Assembly: GCA_012798435.1 (NCBI GenBank)
Contig: JAAZNF010000030.1
Location: forward strand, 1 to 54,738
Direction of reading: 5' to 3'
Length of the DNA: 54,738 nucleotides
From: Myxococcales bacterium
GTDB taxonomy: Bacteria; Myxococcota; B64-G9
Under the pieces are notes generated by a model. The model was not told where the DNA came from, searched no databases, and saw nothing but the letters and a program-made list of their open reading frames with translations. The position numbers and the translations under genes are program-made. Below, in pieces: positions 49,136-51,440 of this stretch. Within the stretch, counting starts at the first letter, position 1, and each line of letters starts with the position of its first letter.

Positions 49136-49153
49136 CGGCTACTTCGATAGCCG
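49136..49153 (+). terminator. Candidate terminator at the end of the T2SS operon
   Basis: CGGCTA (49136-49141) and TAGCCG (49148-49153) form a perfect 6-bp stem with a 6-nt loop, followed by CTTCTTC. It overlaps the last codons of the convergent gene. Only a weak T-rich stretch follows, so the call is tentative. Confidence 0.3.
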
Positions 49154-51403
49154 CTTCTTCAGCGCGGCGCGCTGGGCCTCGAGGTCCTGCGGGGTCTTGA
49201 CCGGGAAGAAACGCTCCTCCCGCTCCACCACCATCCAGTTCGTCGAAAGGAAGCGCGACAGATCGCCGGTGAGCCGTTCGAACTGCACGACCTTGCCATC
49301 ACCCACCTGTTTCTCGGTGGCGTACCAGGGCAGCTCGAACTCGCGATCCAGCGCAGCGGCCTGGAAGATGTAGGTGGCAGTGTTGAACACCGGGATGCGG
49401 TCGGCATCGAAATCCTTGGGGAAGCCGAAACCCTCGACGAGTTGCAGCCGGCCATCGACCCGCGCCGGCGCCCCGCCCTTGTCGCCGGGGAGCTTCTGGG
49501 CCAGCTCCACCGACATCTCGGCACCGGCTTCGAGGTGCAGGCCGAACAAGGTCTCGTCGGGGGTGGCCCCCAGGTTGTCCACGTTCGAGTACCACAGGTG
49601 CTCGCCGCCGCGCTCCAGAAACTCCCGCAGCGCGCCGCTCTGGCGCAACGCGTAGACGAAGTCGCCGTGTCCCGGGCCGTAATAGCGCTCGTGCGGTCGC
49701 TCCGGGTGCGGCGTGAAGACGCTCCCGTCCGGGCGCAGCCGCGGGAAGATGAACTGGGAGAACAGGAACACGTCCTCGCGGGGAACGCCGAAGTAGTCGT
49801 GGCGTTCCAGGTAGCGCGTGGTCTCTGCCTCGGTGGCGAAAGAATTCATGATCAGCACCGGCAGGCGGGCCTTGGCGCGCTTCGCCGCCCTGGCCACCTG
49901 CTCGAGCTTGAGCTGCAAGAAGCTCTTGCCGTCGAACACCTCCACGATGCCCTTGACCTTGCCGCCGAAGCGGGTGGCCATGCCGCCGTTCACGATGGCC
50001 ACCCCCAGCTTGCCCGCGGCCATGGCCTCGCGGCCCAGCTTGGCCAGGCGCGTCCGCTCGGTCTTCTTGAGCTTGGCCACGTCACGGAAGGCGCCCGCGT
50101 CCGGGTGGGCGAACTCGCCGGGGACGACGTTCTTCCCCTCCCCGCGCCGTCCGGCTTTGAGGTCCTCGCGCAAGGTCTGGAAGGTCCCGCTGTCGAAACC
50201 GTAGCGCTGGAGCAAAGCGTCGCCGGGGAGGTCGGGCACCAGCACCGCCTTGCGCCGGCCGGCCAAAAGCTCCTGGTACATCTTCTTGGTCTGCCGGGCG
50301 ATGTAGGCCCAGGAGAAGCGCTCCTCGACGCGCCGGCGCCCGGCCTCGCCGAAGCGTTTGGCGGTCTGGCGATCCTGGAGCAAGCGGTTCACCGCGTCGG
50401 CGATGGCCTGGGGGTTCGCCGGCGGGATGAGGATGCCGGTCTGCTCGGGCACCACCACCTCCTGGATGCCGCCCACCGCGGTGGCCACCACCGGGGTGCG
50501 GCAGGCCATGGCCTCCAGGTTGATGATGCCGAAGGGCTCGTAGATGGAGGGGCACACGAACACCTTGGCGCTGGAGTAGAGCTGGATGTACTCCTCTTCC
50601 TTGAGCAGCTTGTGGATCCACAAAAAGCCCTTGCGCCCGGCGATGCGCTTCTCCAGCATCTCCTCGTACTCGCGGGTGTCGGCCCCGACCGCGCCCATCA
50701 CGATCTGCACGCCGGGATCGATGCGCTCGCGGGCCTCGATCAGGTACTCCATGCCCTTCTGCTTGGTGGGCCGGCCCACGAACAGGATGTAGTCGTCCTG
50801 GATGCCCCAGGTCTTCTTGAGCTCGTCCGAGATGGGGGTGTGCTTCCACTTGTCGGGATCGATGCCGTTGTGGATCACCGCCACCCGCTCCGGGCGAACC
50901 GGGAAGAACTTGAGCACGTCCTGCTTCATCAGGCGCGACACCCCCACCACCCGGTCGGCGTTGCGGATCACCAGATCCTCGATCCAGGTGCTGAGGTGGT
51001 AGCCGTTGCCGAGCTGGTCGACCTTCCAGGGGCGCAGCGGCTCCAGGCTGTGGCAGGTGGCCACCAGCGGCACCTGGTACAGCGTCTTGGCCAGAAAGCC
51101 TGCGAAGGAGGCGTACCAGGTGTGGGTGTGCACGATGTCCGAGTCGAAGGAGTCGAGCATCATGTTGAGGTTGGTGGCGAAGGTGCCGAGGGCCGGGTTG
51201 AACTTGTGGGTCTTCTTCTCGAACTCCGGCGGCATGCGGTAACCACGAGCAGATAGGGTCTGTCCCGGGACCTCCTGGTCGCCGAAGCAGCGCACCTCGA
51301 CCTCCATGATCTTGGATAGCTCCTGGGACAGGTAACGCAGGTGCACCCCGGCGCCGCCGTACACATAGGGGGGATACTCGCGGGCGATCATGGTCACTTT
51401 CAT
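49139..51403 (-). CDS. Fusion of glycogen-synthase-like GT4 glycosyltransferase and UDP-sugar pyrophosphorylase
   Basis: A 754-residue fusion. Residues 1-390 are a GT-B glycosyltransferase of family GT4, closest in style to the actinobacterial glycogen synthase/GlgM group: MIAREYPPYVYGGAGVHLRYL at the N-terminus, VGRPTKQKGMEYL, and EPFGIINLEAMA (289-300). A linker (about 395-445) follows. Residues 450-754 match the UDPGP family (eukaryote-type UTP-glucose-1-phosphate or UDP-sugar uridylyltransferase), with the nucleotide loop NGGMATRFGGKVKG (472-485). One chain could make a UDP-sugar and then transfer it. The product could be a glucan or another polysaccharide; substrates are not certain. AAGGAG 7 nt before the ATG at 51403 fixes the start, and a strong promoter lies upstream. 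Confidence 0.85.
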   Translation of the reverse strand: MKVTMIAREYPPYVYGGAGVHLRYLSQELSKIMEVEVRCFGDQEVPGQTLSARGYRMPPEFEKKTHKFNPALGTFATNLNMMLDSFDSDIVHTHTWYASFAGFLAKTLYQVPLVATCHSLEPLRPWKVDQLGNGYHLSTWIEDLVIRNADRVVGVSRLMKQDVLKFFPVRPERVAVIHNGIDPDKWKHTPISDELKKTWGIQDDYILFVGRPTKQKGMEYLIEARERIDPGVQIVMGAVGADTREYEEMLEKRIAGRKGFLWIHKLLKEEEYIQLYSSAKVFVCPSIYEPFGIINLEAMACRTPVVATAVGGIQEVVVPEQTGILIPPANPQAIADAVNRLLQDRQTAKRFGEAGRRRVEERFSWAYIARQTKKMYQELLAGRRKAVLVPDLPGDALLQRYGFDSGTFQTLREDLKAGRRGEGKNVVPGEFAHPDAGAFRDVAKLKKTERTRLAKLGREAMAAGKLGVAIVNGGMATRFGGKVKGIVEVFDGKSFLQLKLEQVARAAKRAKARLPVLIMNSFATEAETTRYLERHDYFGVPREDVFLFSQFIFPRLRPDGSVFTPHPERPHERYYGPGHGDFVYALRQSGALREFLERGGEHLWYSNVDNLGATPDETLFGLHLEAGAEMSVELAQKLPGDKGGAPARVDGRLQLVEGFGFPKDFDADRIPVFNTATYIFQAAALDREFELPWYATEKQVGDGKVVQFERLTGDLSRFLSTNWMVVEREERFFPVKTPQDLEAQRAALKKRLSK

Positions 51404-51440
51404 GGGTCGCTCCTTCGCGGATGGACGAAATTCGTGGCGC

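Follow-up and report, generated by a model that had tools for sequence, protein, structure and literature searches.

A GlgM-like glycosyltransferase joined to a UDPGP-type pyrophosphorylase domain in a myxococcal genome: a predicted two-enzyme chain of the GlgE pathway

Can a single polypeptide make a nucleotide sugar and spend it at once, and if so, on which product? The question is raised by an open reading frame on contig JAAZNF010000030.1 of a Myxococcales bacterium (assembly GCA_012798435.1; the window is positions 1 to 54,738 of the forward strand), in which a GT4 glycosyltransferase runs on into a UDPGP-type nucleotidyltransferase. We consider it probable that the fusion belongs to the GlgE pathway as a two-enzyme chain with predicted activities, in which a GlgM (maltose-1-phosphate synthase) half would be served by a UDPGP half standing in for the GlgC that its relatives carry. 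The architecture is new; as the GlgM and UDPGP families are both already well known, it is a new combination of known parts.

The frame runs on the minus strand from an ATG at 51403 to the end of the stop codon at 49139 and encodes 754 residues without internal stops. Its features are as follows:

49139..51403, minus strand: coding sequence of the predicted GlgM–UDPGP fusion (P0001), 754 residues, ATG at 51403
51410..51415, minus strand: Shine-Dalgarno-like AAGGAG directly upstream of the fusion ATG
50261..51403, minus strand: GT4 half, residues 1–381, by TIGR02149, PDB 6tvp, and identity to relatives
50756..50773, minus strand: donor loop RPTKQK, residues 211–216, with R211 and K216 equivalent to R207 and K212 of Mycobacterium smegmatis GlgM
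50513..50539, minus strand: E-x7-E motif EPFGIINLE, residues 289–297, with E289, G292, and I293 of the GlgM donor site
50222..50260, minus strand: short linker, residues 382–394, between the end of the GT4 match and the start of free UDPGP
49142..50221, minus strand: UDPGP half, residues 395–754, by PF01704 and PDB matches
49961..49990, minus strand: nucleotide loop NGGMATRFGG, residues 472–481, a UDPGP motif

The linker was bounded by the end of the GT4 match (near residue 381) and the start of free-standing UDPGP homologs (near residue 395). As each half is also known as a free-standing protein in other genomes, we read the frame as a true two-enzyme chain; at the level of the assembly, the fusion is real. 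The original prediction, made from the DNA letters alone, had likewise described one chain of a GT4 domain and a UDP-sugar pyrophosphorylase, and both profiles match above their cut-offs.

TIGR02149 (glgA_Coryne) covers residues 1–379, the full GT-B length, with 465.7 bits (cut-off 302.4); Pfam Glycos_transf_1 and Glyco_transf_4 also match this half. The best match among solved structures is M. smegmatis GlgM (PDB 6tvp, 312 bits), and identity to stand-alone relatives is 52–56%. TIGR02149 carries the name "glycogen synthase," yet its mycobacterial members convert ADP-glucose and glucose-1-phosphate to maltose-1-phosphate (PMC4981310, PMC7137382). Because the best characterized match is a GlgM and the GT4 relatives adjoin glgE, the half is probably a GlgM, and the label of glycogen synthase given to it originally is probably wrong. 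The GT4 donor-site motif that had been placed in this domain is present: besides the RPTKQK loop and the E-x7-E motif, alignment to the GlgM donor-site residues (H109, V146, N171, R207, K212, E289, G292, and I293 in M. smegmatis numbering; PMC7137382) finds all eight kept, as H118, V155, N179, R211, K216, E289, G292, and I293. The half deviates at positions near-invariant in 19 homologs (D129, G154, K214, G237, A241, M249, and I326), of which K214 belongs to the RxxRQK loop and both G237 and A241 to the CxxAPDT loop; these substitutions fit an altered donor site and prove nothing.

The C-terminal half is matched by PF01704 (UDPGP) over residues 423–741 (176.4 bits, cut-off 22) and contains the nucleotide loop that had been reported there. 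The original prediction had proposed aligning the nucleotide site; among solved structures the half comes nearest to the UTP-glucose-1-phosphate uridylyltransferases, its best PDB matches, which reach 116 bits where the top UDP-N-acetylglucosamine enzyme reaches 77, and the NGG, MNSF-T, Q-PR, GHGD, DNLGA, FNT, and PVK motifs are all kept. The match stops near residue 390 of 492 in 7ppr, so that the final 100 or so residues, the C-terminal part of the long uridylyltransferases, are missing; as free homologs in relatives are likewise short, a short UDPGP form exists. The half thus appears to be a short type of UTP-glucose-1-phosphate uridylyltransferase, nearest to the UDP-glucose enzymes. It resembles the known UDPGP-type enzymes (PF01704; 7ppr, 8c0b, 2i5k, 2icx) in nucleotide loop, GHGD, DNLGA, FNT, and PVK, and differs from them in its shorter length and in being joined to a glycosyltransferase. 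Loss of catalytic residues in either half had been named as grounds for abandoning the idea; the catalytic motifs are intact in both, and suggest that each would be competent.

Which pathway would such a chain serve? The genome (5.0 Mb in 129 contigs, a 97.3% complete draft) encodes GlgE (its match to solved GlgE structures reaches 692 bits), GlgB, and a TreS–maltokinase fusion. GlgC was not found in it by TIGR02091 and PF00483 searches, nor was GalU, which was not found in eight other genomes of its family either. An NTP_transferase search of the genome gave five matches, including one of the mannose-1-phosphate guanylyltransferase type and a 329-residue enzyme; from reading the remaining sequences, we take them to be GlmU and two small proteins. 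The sole GT5 GlgA homolog (contig C112; L116:1444-2862, plus strand) falls short of the TIGR02095 cut-off, and its KTGGL, R300, K305, and E377 (Escherichia coli numbering) are all lost; we rejected it as a working glycogen synthase on account of these losses, for which reason GlgE is probably the working polymerase. The homolog sits behind a long open frame and has the look of a glycogen synthase that is dead or serves another purpose. Of the classical GlgC–GlgA pathway, then, GlgC was not found and no intact GT5 GlgA remains, and for the GlgE pathway the genome has GlgE, GlgB, and candidate sources of maltose-1-phosphate in the TreS–maltokinase and the fusion. The missing GlgC bears more on the donor than on membership of GlgM, as it is pathway context and not a property of the protein. 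The gene had been described as standing alone, without other glycogen genes; this holds for its neighborhood and fails for the genome as a whole.

We propose that the UDPGP half would convert glucose-1-phosphate and UTP to UDP-glucose and pyrophosphate, and that the GlgM half would combine this UDP-glucose with a second glucose-1-phosphate to give alpha-maltose-1-phosphate and UDP. The overall reaction would most likely be 2 glucose-1-phosphate + UTP → maltose-1-phosphate + UDP + pyrophosphate, the maltose-1-phosphate being polymerized by GlgE and the product branched by GlgB. UDP-glucose as the physiological donor is suggested by the fusion together with the missing GlgC, and a local supply of UDP-glucose may be of benefit. 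That the chain makes and uses its own UDP-sugar, as first proposed, fits the intact motifs, the failure to find GlgC or GalU, and the usual position of this GT4 family next to a GlgC-like gene; what is probably wrong is the glycogen-synthase label. As M. tuberculosis GlgM is poor with UDP-glucose, we predict either a changed GT half or compensation through local supply by the attached enzyme. Only tentatively do we suggest that UDP-glucose, fed locally by the attached pyrophosphorylase, has taken the place of ADP-glucose as the preferred donor of the GlgM half, so that the nucleotide-sugar branch of the GlgE pathway runs on UTP and not on ATP.

The known GlgM enzymes (M. tuberculosis Rv1212c, M. 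smegmatis MSMEG_5080, PDB 6tvp) are alike in family, full-length GT-B match, donor-site residues, and the genomic company of GlgE and GlgB. They are free enzymes preferring the ADP-glucose made by GlgC (PMC4981310, PMC7137382), whereas the fusion carries a UDP-type pyrophosphorylase in a genome where GlgC was not found. TreS–maltokinase (TreS–Pep2) fusions, of which this genome has one, are likewise single chains ending in maltose-1-phosphate; they differ in starting from trehalose and ATP and in their unrelated domains. A fusion with its own UDP-glucose maker and no detected GlgC gives a clear prediction of donor use and a natural test of how a GT4 enzyme chooses between ADP- and UDP-glucose, and as a single catalyst it could yield maltose-1-phosphate from glucose-1-phosphate and UTP.

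Among 195 genomes of the phylum, the fusion occurs once. GT4 was found in 14 of them, one fused and 13 as stand-alone GlgM, and GlgE is encoded in 12 of these 14 against 83 of the 181 without GT4 (Fisher p = 0.004, relatedness ignored). GlgM adjoins glgE in six genomes (G008, G018, G020, G023, G171, G172). A GlgC-like gene is linked to the stand-alone GlgM in 11 of 13 (G008, G018, G020, G024, G037, G171, G172, G173, G174, G175, G179; for example L099:8232-9533, minus strand, L107:3044-4330, minus strand, and L105:7070-8476, minus strand), with GlgE lying between the two in G008; G023 has no GlgC-like gene linked to GlgM, and in G194 the locus ends at a contig end. Published descriptions tie GlgM to GlgC and ADP-glucose and make it mainly actinobacterial (PMC11046441); here it is seen beside GlgC-like genes and glgE in another phylum. 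Of the 13 genomes with free GlgM, 12 encode GlgC itself, the exception being G023, which is 82% complete. The GlgM-linked GlgC-like proteins reach 254–284 bits against a GlgC cut-off of 424.9, and most are without equivalents of E. coli GlgC R32 and D276, the R being replaced in the GGRGTRL loop. Given the scores and the missing residues, these proteins may form a regulatory subfamily, with the canonical GlgC encoded elsewhere. In G023 (L101:896-6147, minus strand), the genes next to GlgM and GlgE include one for a PduT-like microcompartment shell protein and one for an RnfC-like protein, and GlgC is absent.

Several points weigh against a GlgE-pathway chain fed by its own UDP-glucose. At 97% completeness GlgC may be missing from the assembly, and a 329-residue nucleotidyltransferase whose specificity is not clear (C58) is also in the genome. 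The base specificity of the GT4 half is not readable from sequence, and for M. tuberculosis GlgM the kcat/Km with UDP-glucose is about 250-fold below that with ADP-glucose (PMC4981310). The GlgC-like neighbors of GlgM look mostly noncatalytic and may not supply the donor, which weakens the story of a replaced operon partner and leaves the absence of GlgC here unaffected. The fusion itself is seen in a single draft genome.

It is unlikely, in our judgment, that the halves were joined by accident and work separately, with the UDPGP half as a general UDP-glucose pyrophosphorylase and the glycosyltransferase still acting on ADP-glucose, supplied by a different nucleotidyltransferase or by a GlgC that the assembly lacks. 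The incomplete draft leaves room for this, the retention of every donor-site residue of the ADP-glucose-using GlgM is in keeping with it, and a general UDP-glucose source would be needed where GalU was found neither in this genome nor in the eight of its family. Yet genomes with a stand-alone GlgM nearly always have the GlgC that was not found here, and the GT half is altered at near-invariant positions (G237, A241, K214) and sits on a long branch.

Somewhat less likely still is that the GT4 half would extend alpha-glucan directly, as a true UDP-glucose glycogen synthase supplied by the UDPGP half. The TIGR02149 name, the likeness of GT4 and GT5 donor sites (PMC7137382), and the apparently dead GT5 homolog, which leaves room for another synthase, are set against mycobacterial GlgMs that make maltose-1-phosphate and barely use glycogen, and not with UDP-glucose (PMC4981310), against the linkage of GT4 relatives to glgE, and against the presence of GlgE in this genome. 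An assembly or sequencing error deleting the stop between neighboring genes is very improbable: only one draft genome has the fusion, but codon-position composition shows no shift over the linker, the domains on either side of this short linker are complete, and the GlgM and UDPGP genes are adjacent in no other genome examined.

The same fusion was sought elsewhere, since a well-described precedent would have undercut the original prediction, and none was found in the genomes or literature searched. The 195 genomes hold no second one; scans of viral contigs gave no relative; and a plasmid collection gave no fusion and only stand-alone GlgM-type GT4s, mainly actinobacterial. An Elusimicrobia-centred search (16 genomes) returned free UDPGP only, and full searches of three Elusimicrobia-type genomes gave no GlgM. 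No GlgM–UDPGP fusion was described in the literature within reach of our search, which excluded most subscription papers. Three long frames were considered as possible further fusions: in G024 (833 residues) and G172 (820 residues) the extra length is an upstream open frame, GT4 following closely after the GlgC-like gene, and in the 726-residue frame of G031 the UDPGP part alone aligned well.

A quick tree places the GT half within the GlgMs of the phylum on a long branch, with same-family G008 as a weakly supported sister (0.56), and the UDPGP half clusters with Elusimicrobia homologs (0.99), apart from the phylum's own free UDPGPs. Its closest free homologs (48–50%) are in Elusimicrobia-type genomes without GlgM, and a free UDPGP gene lies away from GT4 in three other GT4-bearing genomes (G018, G024, G194). 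A structure prediction of the whole chain from only three homologs gave a pLDDT (predicted local distance difference test) of 45 and was not used.

Around the fusion, judging from the translations, we take the genes up to 49121 to be Gsp-type and those on its other side, on the opposite strand, to be homoserine kinase and threonine synthase. In L009, L010, and L011, gene order is conserved around the free UDPGP gene, which has two peptidyl-prolyl-isomerase-like genes on one side and a PdxA-like gene on the other; these loci come from two Elusimicrobia bins and one bin labeled Sumerlaeota, which has the Elusimicrobia gene order and is possibly mislabeled. On contig C12 of the fusion's own genome (L002:62-2754, plus strand), a galactokinase-like frame is followed by a second UDPGP-like protein, of 597 residues, which carries a GNGHGG motif and may be a UDP-sugar pyrophosphorylase of a galactose route without GalT.
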